In this document: positions 28,936 through 47,215 of the stretch, in pieces
How the letters are laid out: every line of letters starts with the position of its first letter
How positions within the stretch are numbered: the stretch's first letter is position 1
Assembly: GCA_029817715.1 (NCBI GenBank)
Contig: JARUPY010000164.1
Span: forward strand, 2,856,001 to 2,920,000
DNA length: 64,000 nt
DNA from: Melastoma dodecandrum
Lineage: Eukaryota > Streptophyta > Magnoliopsida > Myrtales > Melastomataceae
Direction of reading: 5' to 3'
Notes under the pieces: model-generated
The model's database searches: none
The model's input: only the letters and a program-made list of their open reading frames with translations
What the model was told of the DNA's origin: nothing
Position numbers and translations under genes: made by a program

Positions 28936-29105
28936 TGTTAGAATGTATTTAGACATAATGGTAGAAATGTATATAGACAAAAAGAAGGTTAGGTTCATAG
29001 TTTAGATATTTACTATACTTAGATATTTACCTTTACCTTATATATATCTTGTATATGTGAATATTGAAAATAGAGATTGTATTTTTTTCCAAATACTTTT
29101 GTTCA
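28936..29105 (+). repeat. 5' LTR of the copia element
   Basis: 170 bp, TG...CA. It contains TTATATATATCTTGTATATG, a plausible TATA region, near 29039. Differs from the 3' LTR at four positions. Confidence 0.95.
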
Positions 29106-29117
29106 TGGTATCAGAGC
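29106..29117 (+). other. Primer-binding site (initiator Met tRNA) of the copia element
   Basis: TGGTATCAGAGC directly after the 5' LTR is the standard initiator-Met tRNA primer site of plant copia elements. Confidence 0.95.
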
Positions 29118-29290
29118 ACTAGGGATCTGATTCTTTAGCCTGCTACCCCTACCAGGTACCTGTTATCTGCTGCATCTGCTGGTACTTGTTATCTGCTGCC
29201 CCTACCGTGTTTGTTATCTGTTGCCCCTGCCGTGTTACCTGCTGCCCCCCCTGGCACCTTTTGCTATCCAAAAATCTGTGATTACTCGGA

Positions 29291-32200
29291 ATGGCGGATG
29301 CAAAATCCTCGGGTTTAATGATGCAAAATCTGAAGGCTACCACCATCAAGTTGGATGGTAGAAATTATTTGGTGTGGGCTCAATCGTTTCGTCTCTTTCT
29401 CACTGCCCAGAGGAAACTGCGACATATCACAGATGATCCACCGGCAATTGATGATAAATCATATGAAGATTGGATTGTTGCAGATTCTTGCGTTATGACA
29501 TGGATACTCAACAGTATGAATGAGATCATATCTCCAAGCGTGGTATTCTTAACCTCTGCCAAACAAATATGGGAGTCACTGAAGGAGATGTATGGCCATG
29601 AGAAGAATATTTCTCGCGTGTACGAATTGTACGAGCAATTGTTTGCCCTTCACCAATGCGACCAATCTCTCACGGAGTTTTATGCTGCCCTTCGTGGAAT
29701 ACTGGATGAGCTTGATCTTCATCAGCCGATTGTTCTTAATGCTCAAACTTTGCGAGAGTATCGGGAAGGACTGGCTGTATCTAAGTTTCTGTCGGGTGTA
29801 AATCCTGAAATAGCTGCACAAATTCGTGGATCGGTGTTAGGAAGCGACTCAATTCCAACCTTGGCTACAACCTACTCACGAGCACTACGCATCTCCACTA
29901 GATCTAATCCTCCTGACTCAGCATCTGCGTTATCTGCTGTTGGACGAGGCCGTGGTCGTGGTCAGGGACGCGGTCGTGGAAGGTCTCAACCTTTCCTTTC
30001 TAGCCAACCTTGTGTACATTGTGGCAGAGTGGGGCACCTTTCTGAGAAATGCTGGCGGAAGTTTGGAAAACCTGATTGGGCACTAGTACTTGAAACCCCG
30101 GCTTCAACCTCTGTCACCAGCACACCGCCAAATGCTTCATTAACGGTGGTGTCAGAAACCGCCAACCAGGGTAACTCTTCTGACTCGTCTATCCCTGTAG
30201 CTTTGCATGTAGGAAAGGACGTATTGCCTCCTCCTAGTTCCTGGAATCTTGATTCCGGTGCGTCTTTTCATATCACTGGTTCTTCACGTTTCCTATCTCA
30301 TATAGGCCCTTCTTCTCAGTCAAATGTTATTGTGCCTAATGGACAATCTTGTCCTGTTAAAGGTTCTGGTACTACTTTTCTCACATCATCAATATCACTA
30401 CCTGATGTTCTCCTTATACCCAATTTTCCAGTCAATTTGATTTCTGTGAGTCAACTCACCAAAAGTGTCAATTGTTCCCTTACATTCTATCCTTCTCATT
30501 GTGTGTTGCAGGATCTCCAGAGTGGGAAGACGATTGGTTCGGGTATTGAACACGATGGTCTATATTATTTTGGTTGTTCTTCCTCGTCAGCTTTAACTTC
30601 TACTCATATATCGTCTTCTATTTTATGGCACCAACGTTTGGGTCATCCTTCCTTTCATAATCTTTCCCGTGTTTTGGGGGATTCCGTTCAACTTTCTAAG
30701 TTTTCTTGCGAGTCATGTTAGTTGGGAAAGCATCATCGTTCTTCTTTTCCGTCTCGTTTTCAGTCCAACAGTACTTCTCCTTTTGAGTTAGTACATTCAG
30801 ACATTTGAGGTCCATATAAATATAAATCTATCCAGGGATACCGTTACTTTACTAATTTTATTGATGATTTTACTTGCGTCACCTGGGTTTATCTTCTACG
30901 TGATAGGAGTCAAGTGCCTGATGTACTACGTCAATTTTATAATGAAATCAAAAATCAATTTGCTGTTTCTATTAAGGTGTTACGTACCGACAATGCACTA
31001 GAATACGTGCAGACTGATATTTCTTCATTTTGTTCGGCACATGGTACCCTTCATCAAACCACTTGCCCGTATACTTCTCAACAAAATGGAGTAGCTGAAC
31101 GCAAACATCGACATTTGTTAGATGTTGCACGCACTATCTTGGTTCAAATGCATGTTCCGCGTTACCTTTGGGGTGGTGCGATTCTCACTGCTTGTCATCT
31201 TATTAACCGCATGCCTTCTTCAGTGTTACATGGTCGTATTCCTCTGCAATGTCTTTTTCCATCAAAACCTCTGTTTTCAATTCTACCTCGTGTTTTTGGT
31301 TGTGTCTGCTTTGTTCATGATTGTCGCCCAGGAATGGACAAATTAGCTCCTCGGGCAGTCAAATGTGTGTTTGTGGGGTACTCGCGCACTAAAAAAGGTT
31401 ATAAATGTTTCGATCCATCTTCGAATCGATACTTTGTTTCTACTGATGTCATATTTTTTGAAGCTCAACCATATTTCATGCCGTCCCCCGTAAAAGATAT
31501 TCCTCACGTCCCTCTCCCAGTGCCATGTTCCCCTCCATTAGTTCCTCCGATGCTTGACTCTTCTACTCATTTGGCACCAGTGTCTCCACCACTACGCGTT
31601 TATACGCGTCGTTCACAGACTCAGCCGTGTTCAGTACCCCAACTGATACTTCTACTTTGGCTGATCCGTCCAACACATTAGTGCCAGGACCACCTTCTGA
31701 CCTTGATCTTCCCATTGCTCTACGTAAAGGTAAACGTTCCACTCAACATCCCATTTCTAACTACATCTCTTATGACCGTCTCTCCACCTCCTCGAAATCG
31801 TTTGCCTTGTCCTTGTCTACCGCATCTATTCCAAGGAACTATGAGGAAGCTCTTCAATATCCTGCATGGAATGCTGCTATGGATGAAGAGGTGAGTGCTT
31901 TGGTTTCACGGGAAACATGGCAGTTGGTACACCCCCCTTCAGGAGTTGACATTGTTGGATGTCGGTGGGTCTTCACTATGAAATATAAACCTGATGGTAC
32001 TGTTGATCGCCACAAAGCCCGTCTTGCGGCCAAAGGGTATTCTCAAACTTATGGCATTGATTATATGGAGACATTCTCTCCGACTGCCCGTCTTGATTCC
32101 ATTCGTATTTTGTTCTCTATTGCTATCAATTTGCAATGGTCTATGCTACAGTTGAATGTTAAGAATGCTTTTCTTTATGGAGATCTTCTGGAGGATGTGT

Positions 32201-33360
32201 ACATGGAGCAACCTCCTGGGTATGTTGCTCAGGGGGAGATGGTGTGCAAGCTTCGCAAGGCTATATATGGATTGAAACAAAGTCCTCGAGCCTGGTTTCA
32301 AAAGTTTAGCAGTGCTGTGGAATCGATTGGCTTTAAGCCTTGTTCCTCTGATCATTCTGTGTTTGTGAAGTCTGGTACTAATGGCTTAGTTATTCTGGTG
32401 GTTTATATAGATGATATTCTGCTAACAGGAAGTGACAATACTGAGATTCTTCAAACACGAGACTTTCTTCAATCCCAGTTTGTTACTAAAGATTTGGGGA
32501 AACCAAAATATTTCCTTGGCGTGGAGTTATTACATAACAAGAATGGTGTTGTGTTGTCACAGCGAAAATATGCACTTGATCTGTTGAAGGAGACGGGTCT
32601 CATTGACTGCAAACCCGAGCTCACCCCAATTGAATCCAGTCCAGAGCTGTGGGATGATTCTTCAGAGTTACTTGAGGATGTGGGCAGATATCGGAGGTTA
32701 GTTGGCAAACACATATACTTGACAGTCACACGTCCGGATATCACCTTTGCTGTAAGTGTTGTTAGTCAATTTATGCAAAACCCTCGAAAGATCCACTGGA
32801 AGGCTGCAATCCGTATTCTAAATTACATCAAGAGCTCTCCAGGAAAAGGTTTGCTTTACAAAAATCATGGGCATTTGAAAGTGGAAGGATATTCAGATTC
32901 AGGATATGCAGGAGATAAGGCGGATCGTCGTTCAATGACTGGGTATTGCACATTTATTGGTGGTAATTTGGTAACTTGGAGAAGTAAAAAGCAAAATGTT
33001 GTGTCCAGATCAAGTGCAGAAGCGGAGTATCGTGCAATGGCTCACACTGCATGTGAGTTGTTATGGGTCAAGAATCTTCTGAGTGAACTTGTTTTTTCTG
33101 TACCTACGCCCATGCGAATGTGGTGTGATAATCAGTCAGCGATTTATATTGCCAAAAATCCAGTATTTCATGAGAGGACGAAACATGTGGAGGTAGATTG
33201 TCATTTTGTTCGGGATATGGTGATGAATGGAACTATTGAGACGCCTTTTGTTCGGTCAGGAGAACAATTAGCGGATATTTTCACCAAAGGGTTGATATCA
33301 GGGGTATTCACCGAGTTATGTAACAAGCTTGGCATATATGATGTATATGCTCCAGCTTGA
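29291..33360 (+). pseudogene. Copia gag-pol polyprotein, three lesions
   Basis: Gag opens with a UBN2-like region. A CCHC zinc knuckle (CVHCGRVGHLSEKC) is followed by the aspartic protease (LDSGASFHITG), the pre-integrase motif (LWHQRLGHPSFHNL), the integrase core (TSQQNGVAERKHRHLLDVAR), reverse transcriptase with YIDDILL, and RNase H (VVSRSSAEAEYRAMAHTA). Lesions: TAG at 30719-30721 and TGA at 30806-30808 (in the usual SDIWGP motif, so Trp to stop) between the pre-integrase motif and the integrase core, and a single-base frameshift between about 31620 and 31640 before the reverse transcriptase. From 31627 the frame is open to the TGA at 33358. The element cannot make its own full polyprotein. 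Confidence 0.95.
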
Positions 33361-33367
33361 GAGGGAG

Positions 33368-33537
33368 TGTTAGAATGTATCTAGACATAATGGTAGAAAT
33401 GTATCTAGACAAAAAGAAGGTTAGGTTCATAGTTTAGATATTTACCATACTTAGATATTTACCTTTACCCTATATATATCTTGTATATGTGAATATTGAA
33501 AATAGAGATTGTATTTTTTTCCAAATACTTTTGTTCA
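33368..33537 (+). repeat. 3' LTR of the copia element
   Basis: 170 bp copy of 28936-29105 with four substitutions, followed by the target duplication GTTTT. Confidence 0.95.
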
Positions 33538-33646
33538 GTTTTGTTGACCGGACTCTTATCTTCACTGGTTAGCTCGAACGCTTAATAATGGTGATGATCA
33601 CTGTCGTCGTCCTCGTTCTAAATGTATGCGGCAAAGACATATTTCA

Positions 33647-34509
33647 GGACGCGGCTAACGTGCCGTTAACGACACGTTACGTGAGTTGTACTAATTTCGA
33701 CCCAAAATTAGTACAATGTACTAAATCGATTAGTACATTTTGAAATTACTAATAATGTACTAACACTGTAGTTAGTACAGTGTACTAAGTGGAACTGTTC
33801 TTGTACTAGTAATGATTAGTACAATGTACTAATGGGAACTGTTCTTGTACTAGTAATGTACAAGTGTACTAGTTGGTACGAAACAGGAACAGTAATCGTT
33901 AGTACACTGTACATATGTACAGTGTACTAGTTGGTACGAAACAGGAACAGTAATCGTTAGTACACTGTACATATGTACAGTGTACTAGTGTACTAGTTGG
34001 TACGAAACATGAACAGTGACTATTAGTACAGTGTACATATGTACAGTGTACTAGTGTACTAGTTGGTACGAAACAGGAACAGTGACTATTAGTACAGTGT
34101 ACTAGTGTACTAGTTGGTACGAAACAGGAACAGTGACTATTAGTACAGTGTACATATGTACAGTGTACTAGTGTACTAGTTGGTACGAAACAGGAACAGT
34201 AAAGTTTAGTACAATGTACATATGTACACTGTACTAGTGTACTAGTTGGTACGAAACAGGAACAGTGACTATTAGTACAATGTACATATGTACACTGTAC
34301 TAGTGTACTAGTTGGTACGAAACAGGAACAGTAAAGTTTAGTACAGTGTACATATGTACAGTGTACTAGTGTACTAGTTGGTACGAAACAGGAACAGTGA
34401 CTATTAGTACAATGTACATATGTACACTGTACTAGTGTACTAGTTGGTACGAAACTTGAACAGTGACGATTAGTACAGTGTACATGTACACTGTACTAGT
34501 GTACTAGTA
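33647..34509 (+). repeat. Left terminal inverted repeat of MULE-2
   Basis: Begins GGACGCGGCT then a 22-bp palindrome with one mismatch (33657-33678). From ~33840 it is a tandem repeat of ~66-bp units built from GTTGGTACGAAACAGGAACA and the self-complementary block GTGTACATATGTACAC. Just inside (34510-34590) a segment is the reverse complement of the outer part near 33735-33790, so the arm folds back on itself. Confidence 0.88.
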
Positions 34510-35099
34510 AAAAAATAGTTAGTTGTAGTACAATGTACTAACTACAGTATTAGTACATTACTAATAATTGAAAAATGTACTAACAGGGTCTGTTTACTCC
34601 TTCCGTGCCTCATTCCGAACCTGCCGTGATAGTGATATTATCAATTTGCCCCTAACGACGGCTTCCATACTAAAAGCTTTTTTTCTTCTTCTTTCATGGC
34701 CACACAGCATCATCCCCCATGGCTGGCTGGTATGTTGAGGGTTCAACGACGAGATTATGATAGACGGTTTTCACCCGGTAAGTTAATGCCTGGCCGAGAT
34801 TAATATGGAAGCTCTTCACCCGGGAAGTTAATGCGATCAATCAGATGACGTCCCCCCATGTTCTTTGGAAGTGGTTGGTGAGGGAATATTAAAGTTTAAA
34901 CTCCTGGGGTTGGATAAGATCGTCTTTCGTAGTGCAGTAACTCCCCGTTGTGCAGTAACTTCCGGTTGGTTTTGCCTTTGATCGTAAATTTTTGGTTTGA
35001 TTGGTTTTGCGTTTGATGCAGAAACCCTTGGTAACCTCAAAAAAACGTGCAGGCGGCTGATCCTGTGGCCGGGCAATATTGGCTTGGGGTTTTCCAGAT
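34510..35099 (+). other. MULE-2 transposase leader
   Basis: Non-coding, presumably promoter and 5' leader. It contains a possible acceptor TTTTCCAG at ~35097 just before the transposase ATG, and another GATGCAG at ~35021. Confidence 0.5.
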
Positions 35100-37220
35100 A
35101 TGGCATCCGACGACGATACGGCGGAGTTTATGAGGATCATTTCGGGTATGACAGAGGAAAAGCTTATGGAGTCGACCTTCCATTCCGCAGCGGAGGTGGG
35201 AGAACTTTTTAGGATGTATGGGTTAGTTCATGGATTTTCTACTCGGAAAAGGGACAGAAGACGTAGGCGAGACGGGGAGTCTGTAATGCATAGCTGGGTT
35301 TGCTCGCGCGAGGGCCTTCCGAGACGTAGGTCCACTATTAATCTGCCATCGCGGGTTAGGGCGTCGACGAGGACAGGTTGCCCATGTGGAGTTAGAACCA
35401 CTGTAGACTGTAATGGCCGATGGAGCATCGTGGCAGCGAATTTGAACCACAATCACGAGTTGGTGCCTGGGCCTCTGTCATGTTTCATGCGGGAGCGTCG
35501 ATCCGTGTCGGATGAGGACATGGCTGTCGTGAAGAGAATGTTAAGCGTGGGCTTCAGGCAGTGCGAAATAATGCGGCTGCTGGTTTACGCTTCTGGAGGG
35601 CACGATCGCGTGGGCTTCTTGCTTAAGGACCTGAATAATCGTAAGCTAAGGGATGAAGGGGCTGACAATTACAGAAGGTTTGAAACAGGATATGCTTACC
35701 TACTGTCCAGACAAGGGTGCGATGAAGGCATGTCATTAGTGACATCCGTGGAGGCCGGCGAAATCGTGCGTATGTACTGGTTGGACTCGAAATCGAAGCT
35801 GGATTACAGTACATTCGGCGACGTCGTCGCTCTTGATTCGACCTTCAAGACAAACTCTTATGGGATGCAGATGGTCGTCCTTGTCGGCGTGAACCACCAC
35901 CATCAGACTATTGTCTTCGGGGCGGCACTGATGCTATCGGAGACGGCAGAGGATTACAGGTGGCTGTTACGTACTCATTCCGAGGTTATGAGATCCAAGA
36001 TACCAATAAGTGTTGTCACCGACGCAGATAGAGCGATGATTGCGGCGGTGCGAGAAACTTGGCCAACGGCAAGGCATCGTCTCTGCCTTTGGCATATGAG
36101 CCGGAATATTGTCCGTCGGGTGCACGATCCTGCGCTGCGTCGAACGATCTGCTCCTTCATGTACAACTCAAATTTCAGCGACGATGTCGAGCAAGAGTGG
36201 GACGAAATGTTGAAGGACACTGGCTCGGTGAACCGTAGATGGCTAAATCAGCTGTACGAATGTAGACAAATGTGGTGGTTGACCTATTGCCAAGGTCATT
36301 TTTGGGCCGAGCTGCGTAGCACCCAGCGTTGCGAGCGGATGCACGCCTTCATGAAGGGATACTTGAAGGCGACGCACAAGGTGCACGAATTCTTACATCA
36401 CTACGAACGAGCAGTGACAGATTTACGACATAAGGAAAGTATGGAGGATTACAATTCGGCCGTAAAAGCGTACGAGTTGCGAACTATGCTGCGTAGCCTC
36501 GAGGTTCACGCGAGTCGGATATACACCCTTATGTCGTTTCGGAAGGTGCAGTTGCAGATCCTCCGGGAAGCACTATTTTTCGTTGAGGGAACTATCGATG
36601 GAAATGTCAATCGAGTTTTTCGATTACGATGTTACGACAACGACATTTCTGGTGCTGAGGTGTTTTCATCAAAAGATCGTCATGCGTTGAGCTGCAGCTG
36701 TCTTCACTTCGAGACATACGGCCTTCCTTGCGCACATTTATTTCACATTATGAAGGTCGAGGGCATGAAGTGCATCCCACCGGGGCTCGTGCTTCACCGT
36801 TGGACCAAAGGAGCTCGGTCATCGCATGGGGCCGCGACGGATGGGTCGGCTTACAGCTTCAATTCTGCAGAGTTCCGACAAGGAATTCTAACGAACGCTT
36901 GTCGCCGTTTATGTTATCTTGGATGCAAGACAGATGCCGCTTACGCGCACGTACGGACATCCATACAAGACTTGACCGTCGCATTAGAACGCGACGCTTT
37001 GAGTGATGGGTCTGCGTTGCCATTCCCTCACGGCAACGAAAAACGCAAGAGACTGCTTGTTGTGGAAGAAACTGGGCCATCAACGTCAAGGTATTACAAT
37101 TCTGGAATGCGCGGCGATCATCACGTTCCGTTCAATACAATTTCGGATATGACTGAAAAAGGAAAGAAATTCGAAACGTCCAGCAAGGGATTATCAGTGG
37201 TAGGTCAGCTGCAAATTTAA
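35100..37220 (+). CDS. FAR1-type MULE transposase, full length
   Basis: An uninterrupted 706-codon frame from ATG at 35100. Residues ~24-128 form a FAR1-like DNA-binding region (STRKRDRRRRRDGES, HSWVCSR, LNHNHELV). The catalytic domain carries VVALDSTFKTNSYGM (Asp246), VVTDADRAM (Asp308) and FWAELRSTQRCERMH (Glu404), a full DDE triad with D-62-D and D-96-E spacing, and RHRLCLWHMSRN between. A SWIM zinc finger follows (CSCLHFETYGLPCAH, first Cys at 532). This matches autonomous MULE transposases of the FAR1/FHY3/Jittery-like clade, which cut and paste elements with matching terminal repeats in the nucleus. No stop or frameshift is seen. The ORF could extend seven codons upstream, but without an ATG. 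Length is in the family range. Confidence 0.95.
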   Translation: MASDDDTAEFMRIISGMTEEKLMESTFHSAAEVGELFRMYGLVHGFSTRKRDRRRRRDGESVMHSWVCSREGLPRRRSTINLPSRVRASTRTGCPCGVRTTVDCNGRWSIVAANLNHNHELVPGPLSCFMRERRSVSDEDMAVVKRMLSVGFRQCEIMRLLVYASGGHDRVGFLLKDLNNRKLRDEGADNYRRFETGYAYLLSRQGCDEGMSLVTSVEAGEIVRMYWLDSKSKLDYSTFGDVVALDSTFKTNSYGMQMVVLVGVNHHHQTIVFGAALMLSETAEDYRWLLRTHSEVMRSKIPISVVTDADRAMIAAVRETWPTARHRLCLWHMSRNIVRRVHDPALRRTICSFMYNSNFSDDVEQEWDEMLKDTGSVNRRWLNQLYECRQMWWLTYCQGHFWAELRSTQRCERMHAFMKGYLKATHKVHEFLHHYERAVTDLRHKESMEDYNSAVKAYELRTMLRSLEVHASRIYTLMSFRKVQLQILREALFFVEGTIDGNVNRVFRLRCYDNDISGAEVFSSKDRHALSCSCLHFETYGLPCAHLFHIMKVEGMKCIPPGLVLHRWTKGARSSHGAATDGSAYSFNSAEFRQGILTNACRRLCYLGCKTDAAYAHVRTSIQDLTVALERDALSDGSALPFPHGNEKRKRLLVVEETGPSTSRYYNSGMRGDHHVPFNTISDMTEKGKKFETSSKGLSVVGQLQI

Positions 37221-37362
37221 CTGTATTCAGCTTTGAGAACAACGTAAGGCCACAGATTGCAAAATGTCCTACTGTAACGGGACATTTTACCATCTCTGTC
37301 CTACTTTCAGCACAAAGGCATCAAAAAAGAAAATACTATCAAAAAACTTGTCGGACGGGCAT

Positions 37363-40300
37363 TCACCGGACGAGCCTTTTAACATCACGAGTGGCCGTCG
37401 CCGAATGTGCCCTCTTTAGGGCGTCGCCCTTAACTTTCCCAAGCAACGACTTCTTCAGTGTATTCCCCGGCCATTTCATTAGACTGACCGTCAGTCGAAT
37501 CCGATCCAATGGGCTTACACGCTGCATACGAAACGTTGCAACATATATCAACGCATGCATGTTGTTAGGGTTTTATTTAACAAGGCAATCGAGAAGCTAT
37601 AACAACTCACCACGTCTGCAAAGCCGTCTATTGGGTCACCCATGGACATGAACTTCATGACATAGATTCCGCAATCCGCTCTGTGCGCCGGCCATAAGTG
37701 TGAAAACAGTTATTACATTACCCTGCAACGCCTTTATGACAATTAATGATTCACCTAAGTGGTACTTACTCGTTGCCTAGGTGGAATTGTTGTGGTACGC
37801 CTGCCGGGCACCGAACGGGCCATGAAGTGAAGTCCGGTACTATGCCTGCAACTGACTGCTTGGTATTCTCCTCCATAATTATCCGGAGAAGCGTTAGCAC
37901 TCGCATATGGAGGTCCATCCTGCCGTGTATATTGGATGATCCCTTATTCGCGGTGTCCAAAAGGAGTACTACGCCGGTGCTGAAGTTGACAACCTGGAGT
38001 GTCCAGTGGGACTCGGACACGCATACCGGTATGTATATCTGTAAGGTTTTGAAAGGGCAAAATAATGAAGAACGACAGCAAATTTATTATAAGTTCACAC
38101 AATACATGTACTGCCACTTACCTGTTTGACGCGTTCATTGGGTCCGATGCAAGACTTGAACGATTTAAGCAGATTTCCCCGTGCGACTTGGCCAACGACG
38201 GGCATCTTCGACGCGCTATAATTACGCGATGCGAGGTTCTGCCCAACGACGGAGATGTGAAATTAATTAAGATCTATTTTTATTTCGTGATTGTGAAGTA
38301 TTCTTTTTATATGGAGTTTGTTTAAGGGTGTAGGCAATACCCCAAGCCAACTCGGGATGTACCACCTCGTTCGCCCTTCTGCTGGTTCGGCACTACTCAA
38401 CATCATCCCGTGGTAGTCGATGATCTGCAATACAATACAGATCGTCGACGAGTGATCAGGCACGGTGTAACGACAACCACTTCACCTAACCTGACCAACT
38501 TTCTTACGTCATTCTGTATCCACCTAAGTGGTTTCAGAGACAGCATTCCATGCCTTGCAATGCTTACGGAATGCCCCAAACATAGCAGCTCGCTGCAATA
38601 ACACAAAAAACAAGCAACAGATAAAACACTAGAAGTAGAATTACTAGGCAGAGTGGATATTCTCCACTCTCTCAGGTTGTACCTGGTGAAAACAAACAAT
38701 AAAGAACAAGGAAATCCCACCTAGGATCAAGTAGATCACTCCAAGCATAGGACAATAAACTCCAGTCGGTTGCTTTAAAAGATTTCAACTCCCCTACATC
38801 GACATCTTCCGGAATGAGTTTGTTAATGTCCTATAAAGTAACATAGGACAAGGAAAGTATGTTTCATTAACGACTACAGACTACAACACCATACAACGAC
38901 CTCCACAAATGTTCCAAATGGAGTTATCTTATACCTCTGGTATGTTATCACGCTTCCTTTTCGACCGTCGTGGGCCTGCCTTATCAACCACAAACGGTGA
39001 GGTGGCGTACGCGGATGGCTTCCTACAGGCCGCACGCCGGGTCTGAACCCTCTGCATTTTCTTCACCTGGTTGGTTGAAGAAATGCTCTCCTAAGACACG
39101 CATTTGCCAGTTCAAAGTCAGCAAACGAAACGTTGACTGCACATAACTATCGTGCACAAATCACGTCGACAAAAGTAAAATGATGTGCAATATGACCTTG
39201 TGACCAGATTCGGGCTGCGCCGCAACCGGCGGTGCGGGTGCGTCGCCTGTCCTATCTTCGATTGGGTCCGTGGGTTCTCCTGCGATAAGCCTCCTCAAGC
39301 CCTCCACTTCTCGGGGGTCTACCGGTTCCTCCGCGTCTTCATCAATTGCGCGAACTTCATTCAGCGGTGGACCGAGCACTTGCGTCAATTTTGTGAGCGC
39401 CTCATTCAGCCTTCTTTCCAGTAGTTCTGACCCCTCCTTCACCTCCGGTGAATACCGGTCCGCGATATCAGCTTCACGGTGCGAATCATCAAACCCTTCT
39501 GACTGCAGCATCGAGCCAACTTCAACAACCACCTTCTTCTTATGTGGGTCCGATGGTCCCTCCATTGGTGCCTCCACCTGATCGGTGTCAGCGAGTCCAA
39601 CCACTCCTTCACCCTCCAACTGAGACGCGGTACTATCGTCGTCACTATCCGCAGCCGCCGGGTCCACGCTCGGCGATTTCGACGAACGTGCTGTCGGCCG
39701 TGCTTTCCTCGAGACTGCCAAGTCTCGAAGTTGGTCCCGAACTTCCCGCACCTCGCTAAGCAGTGTCTGAAATTGCAACTTCAGGTCGAGCACCCCGTCT
39801 TCCACGCGTGAAACACGTTCAGCAAGTGCCTGTAACCACTAGAAGTATAAAACCACTACAAGTATATAACCATCGCTCCGCATTGCCCGCACCAATGATG
39901 TGGTGTTCGTTTACCTTGAGGAGGCTCAAAAATTCCGTACGTTCCTCTTTCTCGTCCGGTAAGATACGGGCCTCAGCATTAGGCGCCTCCACAGCAGTCT
40001 GTAAGTTATCAGGTAAGCAATGAAGACCAATTCATCCGAACTCCATATGAGAAATGGCATTTCTGGTGCGAACATTTCATACCTTCTCAACGTACGTGTC
40101 ATCCGACATTCTGAAACATGCATGGAGTCTGGCGTCATCCCAATCGGCACAGAATGGGGCCCTTCTACCAGACATTGCAAGCGGTGATCCAGGCTTCGAT
40201 ACCTTGCAAGCATAAAATAACTGCACCGACATCGAAACAGATCATCGAGACAGTAACTCAAAGTCCAACTAAGTACACAGCAATATTCAACACAGAAGCA

Positions 40301-41097
40301 GATTTTCTCACGGTAAGCAGGTGCACGCATCCGCCTATGTAACGCGCTGCCCTTTTCCCCTGGAATGTCCTCACACTTTCGCACAGTGTGTCTAACACGT
40401 GGGTCGCCCAATCGAAGGTTATGATTTCCCCGGTATCACTCGTTGCCAGTAGATATCCCCTTGGTATGTCAAAGGCTGTGCCCGGGCATAGGTAGCATCC
40501 CAGGATGAATAATACTAACTCCGCTTTGAACAGTTCGTCCGTGTCCGTCCTGTCGCGCAACTTGTCCTCCACAGACTTCATGGAAATTCTTCCGAGTTTT
40601 ATGTGCTCGCGTAGCTCGGGGTGAACATTCTCCAGAGACCCTTTCATCGGCACGGGGCGTCCGGTGCAGCGGACTCCGAGTATCGCTTCAACATCGGCAG
40701 GTCTGAACTTGTGCTCCACGTCGTCGATGACCATGACACGCCTCGCCGAGTCGAACGTTCTCAAGCATTGTCGCAATGCCCGATGGTTCATGTTCCGGCT
40801 TGCCAAGTGCAGCAGCCCCTCGAAGCCCATCTCCGTGACAACTGCCTTCCGTTGTTCATCGAATGAACTGAACAAAGCCCACAGCTTCTTGGGGCTACAG
40901 CGGGTGAAAATGTATTCCTACCAAAATACCAGACGGGGTTAGCAATAAACCTGGGGACTTGTTGAGAACGACAGGGACCTCACCTTATCCTAGGGAGGTG
41001 ATGACTTCGGACGTTTACTAGCTGATTGAGGCGTCGCATCGCCTCCGAAGTCTTCGTTGTCGAAATCCTCGCGAATCTCTGGGTCCTCCATTTCCAT
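37363..41097 (-). CDS. Ulp1-like (C48, SUMO-protease-type) multi-exon gene inside MULE-2
   Basis: Exons proposed from splice sites and phase: 41097-40984, 40917-40312, 40220-40083, 39998-39915, 39829-39197, 39090-38935, 38830-38721, 38592-38508, 38424-38341, 38238-38122, 38038-37770, 37680-37611, 37521-37363; about 870 residues, every junction in phase. Exon 2 (TRCSPKKLWALFSSFDEQRK, MGFEGLLHLASRN) resembles N-terminal regions of plant transposon-borne Ulp-like proteins. Exon 5 is a coiled-coil/acidic segment; exon 6 has a basic NLS-like patch (PRRSKRKRD). The peptidase has LSLKPLRWIQND spliced to IIDYHGMML, then IPVCVSESHWTL (catalytic His codon 38008-38006), VLLLDTANKG (Asp 37957-37955), VPQQFHLGNE and ADCGIYVMKFM (Cys 37673-37671). 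The triad is complete. Predicted role: isopeptidase acting on SUMO or a related modifier; substrate unknown. Odd: an in-frame TAG (40990-40992) in proposed exon 1. The last exon is least sure. Confidence 0.85.
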
Positions 41098-41690
41098 CAC
41101 TGACATACCCAAACCAGCAAAGGGGATCAAACGTTGCGCAGTCACGACGCACCAGCCTACTACACAACCAAAGCCGAGACACCGAAATCGGACTGGCGCG
41201 AAACCTATCCAAAACCAAGGCCGACACACCCAAGCCGTAACCCCCGGGACAACGGGACCGGATAACCCCGACCGAAAACCCGTGCGACCACCCACCACAA
41301 ACCCATACAACATCTCAACAAACGGGTCATAGAAACCCAAGATCAGAGAACCCAAACCCGCAAACCCTAACGGTAGAGTTAACCTAACCCCATCCCGCTG
41401 AACCCATTACAATCCCATTCCCTCCCCCTCATACCCACCAACTTACCTTTAAGTCGACGCAGGGTTCCCTTACAACGAAAGCGCAGACGGGATTCGACGT
41501 CCAGGGATTGGAGAATTGTTCACTTCGGGGAGTTGTATCTGCGAGATTCTGACGAGGCTTCGAGGGGAAGTCACCAAGACAAAAGGCGGATGGGTATGTC
41601 CAAAATGGTAAATTCACGCCTACCATTAGGTTTGGTTTTTGGCTCGGTTCTATTACGTTTGGTTTTGGTTTCATTAGTACAAATTACCAA
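41098..41690. other. Promoter/leader side of the MULE-2 Ulp1-like gene
   Basis: GC-richer, non-coding on both strands as far as I can see. Open frames here (41018-41355 minus, 41429-41674 minus) have no recognisable domain beyond the proposed first exon at 41097-40984. Confidence 0.4.
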
Positions 41691-42559
41691 TGTACACTAG
41701 TACAGTGTACATATGTACACTGTACTAATCGTCACTGTTCAAGTTTCGTACCAACTAGTACATTAGTACAGTGTACATATGTACATTGTACTAATAGTCA
41801 CTGTTCCTGTTTCGTACCAACTAGTACACTAGTACACTGTACTAAACTTTACTGTTCCTGTTTCGTACCAACTAGTACACTAGTACAGTGTACATATGTA
41901 CATTGTACTAATAGTCACTGTTCCTGTTTCGTACCAACTAGTACACTAGTACAGTGTACATATGTACATTGTACTAAACTTTACTGTTCCTGTTTCGTAC
42001 CAAATAGTACACTAGTACACTGTACATATGTACACTGTACTAATAGTCACTGTTCCTGTTTCGTACCAACTAGTACACTAGTACACTGTACATATGTACA
42101 CTGTACTAATAGTCACTGTTCCTGTTTCGTACCAACTAGTACACTAGTACACTGTACATATGTACACTGTACTAATAGTCACTGTTCCTGTTTCGTACCA
42201 ACTAGTACACTAGTACACTGTACATATGTACAGTGTACTAACGATTACTGTTCCTGTTTCGTACCAACTAGTACACTAGTACACTGTACATATGTACAGT
42301 GTACTAACGATTACTGTTCCTGTTTCGTACCAACTAGTACACTTGTACATTACTAGTACAAGAACAGTTCCCATTAGTACATTGTACTAATCATTACTAG
42401 TACAAGAACAGTTCCACTTAGTACACTGTACTAACTACAGTGTTAGTACATTATTAGTAATTTCAAAATGTACTAATCGATTTAGTACATTGTACTAATT
42501 TTGGGTCGAAATTAGTACAACTCACGTAACGTGCCGTTAACGGCACGTTAGCCGCGTCC
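41691..42559 (-). repeat. Right terminal inverted repeat of MULE-2
   Basis: Inverted copy of the left arm: tandem ~66-bp units with CTGTTCCTGTTTCGTACCAA and ACATATGT palindromes, then the subterminal 22-bp palindrome (42528-42549, perfect here) and the terminal GCCGCGTCC. Confidence 0.88.
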
Positions 42560-42568
42560 CATATTTCA

Positions 42569-45254: not shown

Positions 45255-47215
45255 ATCTATTACACTAAGAGGGAGTTGAATTAATGTTAAAATCTAATTA
45301 AAGATTTTTAACGCCTTTTCAACATACCCCGCAGTGGAAGAAAACTTATGTAAAACAGAACCGTAGAGGTAGGTTTCTGTAAGACAGATCTTACGAATGT
45401 GATTGCGATTTCTTTGATGGACGCAAAGCTTTTATAGTGGTTCGATAACTTGAATACATTCACTCTTCACCCAAATTTTGGATGGTTATCACTTAGACGT
45501 AACGTAGTAACGATTACAAAAGGTGATACCCGATCGACCTTTTACAGCACAGTCCAGGAGGATCTGTATTAAAGTGACTGAGCTGCACAGCACAGACAAG
45601 AAGATTCTGTACCAAAGGTGTCAACCCTTTACAAAACAGACCAGACGGTTCTGTACCAAAGGTGACTGATTTTCACCATACAGACCGAAAATTTCAATAC
45701 CAAAGGTAACCGATTTTCACAGCACAGACCAAAATGTTATGTACCACAGTGACTCGGTGCACGCGTTAACGTGACTAACAAAGGTAACCGGTTGTCGAAC
45801 GTTTCTCTCGAGCGGTGTCCTCTCCTACACAGCAATCCGCTGCGACTTTCTTCGAGACTTTTCAATCCGACGGCGTCTCCACCTGCATAGTAACTCGCTG
45901 TGACTTCCACTAGACTTTTCACTCCGTCGGCATCCCCACCTGCACAGCACCTAGCTGCGACTTCGATTGCGCGATCCCTCGAGACAGCGACTAAGTAAAC
46001 ACAAAACCCTGCCCAAGGTTCTCCTGCGTGGTCCCTCGAGACTACGACTAAGCAAAAAAAGAACCCATGTCCAAGGTTATCCTGTACACACAGAACGTTA
46101 CACCACAGAAGCTGGTTAGTCCATCACCTTCTGTGCTCCTGGGGTATCTGCCCTTCTCTTCGGCCCACTGCACATTGGTCACGCCAGCAACCTGCAACAC
46201 GCCTCCACCAACATCTCCTACAGCCTCCAACCAAGAGTCCCTCACGGCCCCCAGGTCACTCTCCCAAAAGACTTCACCAATGATGGAGCTTTCTGCAGTT
46301 TCGTCCCTCATGTGTGACTAACAAAGCTCAAACGAAAAGATTACAAGTTCTCTGCACGCTCTCTAGATTTTACACGTATAATACAAGAACAACACTTCAC
46401 GAGAATGTGGCCGAATTGACACCTAATTATACAAGAAATTCTAGGTTAAACGCAGAAAGTAATATTGACAAATCAGCCTTATGCAAACATAGAAAACAAA
46501 AATTAGATAAGATTACAATTTAATATTTACAAAAACGAAACACTCAGGCATATATTCTTTAGGTAATCATATCATATCAAAATGATTATGATTTGATGAT
46601 GTTCCCATGAATACTACGAGCTGAAACTGATCAGCAACCTTATGCAAATGAAAATAATCCAAGATTAACTTCCATAATCATCAAGACTTATATCATTATG
46701 TCCAAGATGTTTAATTTAACGAACCTAGACAGATGATATAGATAGTCATCCCAAATAACAGTTCATTCGTGGTTAGATAAGGTTGAAATCAGTCTTAGAG
46801 AACCTTACCATAAATAGATGATATATTTCCTTCCATGAAAAATATAATTCATACTATGATTATTTGGAAACGTAATCCAGAGAATTTGATGAGATTAATG
46901 TCTTGATTGTTTTCCTTTAATTTCGTAATCAAACAATGATTAGATAATCATTTAATTACAAATATATTTCTTACAGAAATTTCTCGACGTAAGTAGCTTT
47001 TATAAAGTAGATGTTTGACTTCTGTTTCACAGGAGATCAAGGTTAATCATCAAAACATGTTCAATAAAATCTTTCGGAAAGAAACAAGTGGACAGGAAGT
47101 CAAACAATTCTTAACAAAAGGAATAGGTTGGAAGGAAACCTCAGGTTTCCGAGTCAACCTTTTTTCGTTTTCATTGAGACGTCGGATTGTATTGCTCTCC
47201 GTGTCTCACCAGTGA
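45255..47215 (+). repeat. LTR-like repeat family, copy 1 (~2 kb)
   Basis: Collinear with 61855-64000. Starts at TTACACTAAGAGGGAGTTGA (45261). It shares a block of CAGACC...TTCTGTACC units (45540-45770), GTTAACGTGACTAACAAAGG at ~45766, CAGAAGCTGGTTAGTCC at ~46106 and CTCTCCCAAAAGACTTCACC at ~46259, then AT-rich sequence to ~47200. The TACACTAAGAGGG opening resembles LTR starts of some plant copia elements (inference). No internal coding domain is attached, so it may be a solo LTR. Open frames within are non-coding. Confidence 0.6.

Follow-up and report, generated by a model that had tools for sequence, protein, structure and literature searches.

The 64-kb stretch of DNA analysed here (the window) contains a TIR-MULE in which a FAR1-type transposase is paired with a second gene that faces it. 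In the family to which this element belongs, the short motif arrayed in the inverted ends differs between protein subfamilies (A, which includes the window copy, B, C and D) while the outermost ends stay alike, one end each having been compared for B, C and D. What is new is the linkage of such subfamily-specific arrays with the most constrained N-terminal exon of the second gene, which resembles DUF1985 and the plant-mobile domain (PMD) at scores below cut-off. How transposons escape silencing without wrecking their host is an open question on which this MULE family bears. Its genome houses several subfamilies that share splice positions but differ in their arrays, and selection on them can be measured, which renders the role of the Ulp1 domain in MULEs testable. 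As the best explanation we propose, with about an even chance of being right, that the second gene and the arrays form a VANC/KIU-like, sequence-specific anti-silencing module.

A MULE with two convergent genes

The element occupies positions 33647-42559 (8,913 bp) and is flanked by an exact 9-bp target-site duplication, CATATTTCA, at 33638-33646 on the left and 42560-42568 on the right, just as the initial annotation had described a 9-bp-flanked element of 8.9 kb. The left terminal inverted repeat (33647-34583, + strand) starts with the end GGACGCGGCTAACG and continues into an array of 44-bp and 66-bp units holding 45 TAGTAC/GTACTA motifs, and a matching array with 42 such motifs lies in the right terminal inverted repeat (41675-42559, - strand). 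The outer 285 bp of the two ends are inverted copies of each other, identical at 284 of 285 positions, and the arrays begin inward of them on both sides. A PF10551 domain, a 9-bp target-site duplication and inverted ends are all present, as expected of a MULE. The transposase (35100-37220, + strand) runs rightward from the left array and faces a 13-exon gene (41097-37363, - strand) that runs leftward from the right array. This is the convergent plan of MuDR, in which two genes, mudrA and mudrB, face each other between long inverted ends; the likeness had been pointed out from the outset, and "mudrB position" is to be taken as a positional analogy only.

Several other features were observed in and around the element. 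The 66-bp arrays can be read as open reading frames of a 22-residue repeat (33899-34495, - strand; 41553-42356, + strand), probably a side effect of the unit length being a multiple of three. A 44-bp unit is repeated in four tandem copies at 45571-45749, with the others 70-74% identical to the first. About 110 bp to the left of the MULE lies a Copia-type retrotransposon, recognised by eye (28936-33537), whose 170-bp repeats at 28936-29105 and 33368-33537 are 98% alike and whose coding region is spread over three open frames.

The transposase comprises 706 aa from its ATG, in a frame with no internal stop. The Pfam scan, for which positions 35103-37220 served as query as they did in the searches, identified a FAR1 DNA-binding domain (PF03101, E 1e-15) and a MULE domain (PF10551, E 2.9e-26), and a regular expression located a SWIM-type CxCx..CxH pattern at the C-terminus. 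The intact FAR1-clade DDE transposase that had been claimed for this unit is therefore borne out as an open frame of FAR1 type. An N-terminal FAR1 domain and a C-terminal SWIM or CCHC finger are given as the traits of the Jittery group (group 36) in the available text of a MULE survey (PMC6446971), and the window transposase shows both. However, the plant members of that group are tabulated in the same portion of the survey with one ORF and a target-site duplication of 8 bp or none indicated, whereas the window element has two genes and a 9-bp duplication. For that reason we label it FAR1-type and do not file it as a Jittery member.

The second gene and its product

Exons of the second gene (37363-41097, - strand) were located by frames conserved in relatives within the same genome, after which splice sites were chosen with untrained weights. 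Exon 1 (40984-41097) is followed by exon 2 (40312-40917), the most conserved part, with its DUF1985/PMD-like domain below cut-off, by exon 3 (40083-40220) and by exon 4 (39915-39998), for which the C and D relatives gave no match. Exon 5 (39197-39829) encodes a fast-evolving coiled and acidic region, exon 6 (38935-39090) carries a basic cluster, PRRSKRKRD, that by eye resembles a nuclear localisation signal and may act as one, and exon 7 (38721-38830) precedes the C48 peptidase domain. The latter begins in exon 8 (38508-38592) and runs through exon 9 (38341-38424), exon 10 (38122-38238), exon 11 (37770-38038, in frame 37766-38083; catalytic His in SESHW, Asp, and Gln in VPQQ), exon 12 (37611-37680; catalytic Cys in DCGIYV) and exon 13 (37363-37521), which ends with the stop codon TGA. 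Phases are consistent across all 13 exons, the introns measure 66-128 bp, and the gene starts and ends where the initial annotation had placed its 13 phase-matched exons.

An independent test of this model was provided by splice sites in relatives, searched within 24 bases of the expected position with nearness favoured and with exons 1, 4 and 5 falling outside the comparison for C and D; the other exon lengths in relatives were projected from the window model and so are not independent. Exons 7, 8, 9 and 12 have the window length in B (C601), C (C582) and D (C495) as well, by the best-scoring sites near the expected place. Exon 11 keeps this length in B and is six bases longer in C and D, and exon 10 keeps it in C, keeps it in D only with the second-ranked acceptor, and found no good match in B. 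The C and D relatives are only 46-48% identical over the C48 part, yet frames and most splice positions recur, which argues against chance exons. Among the A copies, C98 and C317 align with the window gene along all 13 exons, and the aligned parts are free of stops; C98 shows no gaps, and C317 shows 11 gap positions, located in exon 5.

The joined product from exon 2 on matches Peptidase_C48 (PF02902) at E 9.4e-11 over profile positions 82-181, its 42.4 bits exceeding the Pfam cut-off of 20.7, and thus agrees with the Ulp1-type peptidase first read from the window. The C and D relatives score 51.6 and 56.7 bits against the same cut-off, over profile positions 1-180. His, Asp, Gln and Cys follow one another in the order that had been described, with an unusual spacing: Gln stands 9 residues before Cys and aligns to the Gln of SENP1 with a 3-residue insertion. 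A three-sequence profile searched against the PDB matched yeast ULP1 (E 1.2e-5), in an alignment that ends before Gln and Cys, and SENP1 (E 2e-4), in an alignment that pairs both but whose single stretch reaches only E 0.03; the tail of this list is weak, with two unrelated reductases at E 0.004. The four catalytic residues are kept in most copies read, the exceptions being a stop beside His, an Asp-to-Val change and a Gln-to-Pro change. The last of these is found in C601, the B copy read most fully, in which exon 10 has no read-through in the model used. Compared with a protein database, the product from exon 2 on had no match at E 0.001 in the 7,995 candidates that were scored. Removal of SUMO from transposase or silencing proteins, as initially suggested, may be a role of the C48 part. 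Separately, the C48 matches at C119:371409 and C374:183877 each lie in one open frame of 255 codons and cover positions 2 to 181/182 of the 217-position profile; they belong to another Ulp1 type than that of the window, with a domain free of introns.

Although the 13-exon frame and the C48 match stand, the window copy is not the intact gene suggested by its initial description as complete. Exon 1 contains an in-frame stop at codon 36 (40990-40992), and at this position all 13 of the other distinct copies with sequence across the codon have a sense codon (they correspond to 14 loci other than that of the window, since one copy was retrieved twice; two further matches end short of the codon). 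For this reason the window copy is probably not a working peptidase gene. The defect is recognisable only by comparison with relatives, and so could not have been seen from the window.

Exon 2 gives hints of a second domain. In the window it matches DUF1985 at E 0.07 (13.6 bits, cut-off 35.1); more broadly, the window and C relatives reach E 0.07-0.21 against DUF1985 and exon-2 relatives reach E 0.001-0.11 against PMD, all below the Pfam cut-offs. When the whole 836-aa product was compared with Pfam, neither DUF1985 nor PMD was listed at E 10. An exon-2 profile had no match in the PDB at E 1, and single-sequence prediction yielded no usable fold (mean pLDDT 35.6). DUF1985 is a domain of VANC proteins in the accessible part of Hosaka 2017 (PMC5735166), and in the available text of a survey (PMC6446971) PMD and/or DUF domains are given for half of its VANDAL members. 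The PMD hint could point either way, because MAIN and MAIL1, which are PMD proteins of the host, work in silencing and promote it, as described in sections of a PMD study (PMC5418596) in which it was also speculated that PMDs captured by MULEs serve anti-silencing.

Family, selection and motif arrays

At least 63 transposase copies occur in the genome (373 Mb), with 86-100%, 62-76% or 54-56% identity to that of the window, the C and D transposases falling in the last class. Exon-2 and C48-exon matches number at least 150 each. Within 9 kb downstream of the transposase, 54 of 63 copies have a C48 exon, an exon-2 relative or both (31 both, 9 C48 only, 14 exon 2 only, 9 none), as counted among the matches listed: 63 of 64 for the transposase, the other being a second match of one copy, 69 of at least 150 for exon 2, and 65 of at least 150 for C48 exons plus 2 of 57 from another C48 list, the exon matches being those ranked highest together with others close to a transposase copy. 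Two copies have an exon of the same orientation in range, one of which, at 8.7 kb, stands beside convergent exons, so that a convergent exon accompanies at least 53 of the 54. When 30 transposase loci with 1.5-kb flanks were taken as a less selective sample (L039-L068, the window's copy included), 24 contained the Cys exon. The proposal that transposase and Ulp1 gene form one unit is upheld by this co-occurrence among the matches listed and by the exact target-site duplication, and two separate nested elements are accordingly disfavoured.

Among paired ends, five of nine pairs have an exact 9-bp duplication. By eye, those of C604 and C272 are one base out of register; C117 has none, and in C599 one end match is truncated. 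At C603:6502046-6518715 we observed a tandem cluster of related elements, marked by four inverted-end matches that share one orientation and are spaced at 4.82-4.86 kb, and by a fifth in the opposite orientation. A B-subfamily element about 10 kb to the right of the window (L076, L077; C120:2934200-2937580) has about 2 kb extra between end array and transposase region, possibly captured DNA.

Rates were computed from best local matches, in which frameshifts may be hidden; the exon segments aligned in this way for B, C and D contain no stops. Between the window (A) and a B copy, dN/dS of the second gene is 0.17 over 757 codons, and by part it is 0.33 for exon 1, 0.07 for exon 2, 0.20 for exon 3, 0.23 for exons 4-5, 0.11 for exons 6-7 and 0.20 for the C48 exons 8-13. 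Compared with C317 over exons 1-7 only, the overall value is 0.31, with 0.06 in exon 2 and 0.60 in exons 4-5; exons 8-13 of C317 are present and free of stops. For A versus C or D, saturation at synonymous sites precludes a dN/dS estimate. The transposase yields 0.16-0.17 when compared with three B copies and 0.25 with C317, and by this sequence measure the second gene is under similar constraint. That its constraint equals the transposase's argues that the second gene is kept by selection for the benefit of the element. The name "peptidase gene", apt for the C48 domain, thus undersells the locus, in which the most constrained part is exon 2 (0.06-0.07 versus 0.20).

The window contains 108 TAGTAC/GTACTA motifs, 87 of which lie in the two arrays and 3 between them; whole-window shuffles gave a mean of 20.7, and first-order simulations of array composition gave means of 10.5 on the left and 9.7 on the right (maxima 19 and 20). 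In both arrays the motifs stop about 0.5 kb before the start codons of the two genes. Per 900 bp, the two A ends have 43 and 42 TAGTAC against 4 and 3 TAGTAA, and a B end (L077) has 24 TAGTAC and 3 TAGTAA in 455 bp. In contrast, a C end (L074) and a D end (L075) have no TAGTAC and 38 TAGTAA each per 900 bp. The 8-mer GTAGTAAA occurs 15 times in the C region and 20 times in that of D, where first-order simulations gave means of 0.1 and 0.2. The outermost end GCGGCTAACG is nevertheless common to all four subfamilies, the B, C and D arrays being represented by one end each, recognised by likeness and not by a target-site duplication.

Candidate roles and known systems

The hint of a VANC-type domain, the basic cluster and the C48 domain together suggest a VANC/KIU-like module as the best reading. 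The second protein would enter the nucleus, its DUF1985/plant-mobile-like N-terminal part would direct it to the short-motif arrays in the element's own inverted ends, and its C48 part would act there on silencing proteins, cutting off SUMO or a related modifier; the inverted ends would then lose silencing and both genes could be expressed. The window copy, broken by its stop, would need other copies to supply the protein in trans. An outer end common to the subfamilies fits the transposase, and inner arrays that change with the partner protein fit that protein. More tentatively, and with rather less than an even chance, FAR1-type MULEs may run a sequence-specific anti-silencing of their own, parallel to VANDAL/VANC, in which a DUF1985/PMD-like and C48 protein is matched to TIR-borne arrays and a last-base switch (TAGTAC in A and B, TAGTAA in C and D) accompanies protein divergence and insulates co-resident subfamilies.

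Alternatively, the C48 protein could be a protease-only helper that works in trans and frees the transposase or repair proteins of SUMO or a related modifier, with the arrays unrelated. Retention of the catalytic residues in most copies read, the C48 dN/dS of 0.20 and the profile matches to ULP1 and SENP1 would all fit this reading, which is close to the initial one. We nonetheless consider it unlikely, as it would not predict that exon 2 rather than C48 is the most constrained part and leaves array motifs that differ by subfamily unexplained. Equally, one might take the arrays for transposase-binding sites or by-products of repeat turnover, and let the second gene do something else; they do sit within the inverted ends, and counts within about 1.7 kb of the end range from 32 to 79 over 30 end loci, as repeat turnover would give. 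Yet GCGGCTAACG is shared by A-D ends despite C and D transposases only 54-56% identical to A, while the arrays differ (one B, C and D end), and so transposase recognition is more likely to reside in the shared end and this alternative seems improbable. Passive capture (transduplication) of a host ULP gene fragment, although MULEs often capture genes and the window copy is broken by a stop, is very improbable given selection on the second gene (dN/dS of 0.17 over matched exons between subfamilies, equal to the transposase; no value near 1 between older copies, the only weaker constraint being the 0.60 of exons 4-5 between close A copies), its splice positions shared with relatives and the large amplified family.

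The anti-silencing module we favour has parallels in known elements. Ulp1 genes are described in MULEs of Arabidopsis, melon, rice and grapevine, Jittery-like ones included, in the accessible parts of PMC2528002 and PMC13317346. In grapevine, ULP sequences lie downstream of Jittery-like transposases (PMC2528002), as the second gene does here, and ULP domains in Jittery-like MULEs of melon are attributed in passages of the same paper to van Leeuwen 2007. The combination of FAR1-type transposase and C48 gene in one unit, initially singled out as notable, is therefore real but less unusual than it had seemed. In contrast to our element, those of grapevine and melon are described in the available text of PMC2528002 without a gene model, selection test, N-terminal domain or array motifs. 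Our literature search found no report on Jittery-like MULEs that links a Ulp1 gene with inverted-end arrays specific to the subfamily, a weak negative whose scope excludes Sasaki 2022, Hoen 2006 and van Leeuwen 2007.

The KI (Kaonashi)/KIU genes of Arabidopsis VANDAL MULEs resemble the second gene in having a Ulp1 domain and an orientation reverse to the transposase (portions of PMC13317346 and PMC2528002). In excerpts of the review PMC13317346, KIU genes are treated as Ulp1-bearing VANC genes, which act on motifs of related elements and induce hypomethylation of these. By description only, however, KI/KIU elements are non-TIR MULEs, whereas ours has a FAR1-type transposase and long inverted ends. 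Inverted ends of VANDAL elements are absent or short and degenerate, though some group-45 members have TIRs, and FAR1 is not among the domains listed for VANDAL in the available portion of PMC6446971; the window element differs on both counts.

Tandem arrays of short motifs in non-coding DNA, as found in the window element, are often the targets of VANC proteins, and VANC21 binds YAGTATTAY while VANC6 targets carry other motifs, according to the accessible text of Hosaka 2017 (PMC5735166). A figure legend in that text names DUF1985 and DUF287, not Ulp1, whereas the window gene has C48 and a DUF1985 match below cut-off. The VANC21 motif is absent from the inverted ends of the window element, which instead have TAGTAC, with TAGTAA in C and D, and the VANC6 motif AGTTGTMC occurs in them only twice. 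The likeness of TAGTA-type motifs to the VANC21 motif may be due to chance, because they are short and AT-rich. As in our family, VANDAL21 and VANDAL6 elements, in the part of Hosaka 2017 available, combine a TE-encoded partner protein (VANC21 or VANC6) with tandem motif arrays that differ between related elements.
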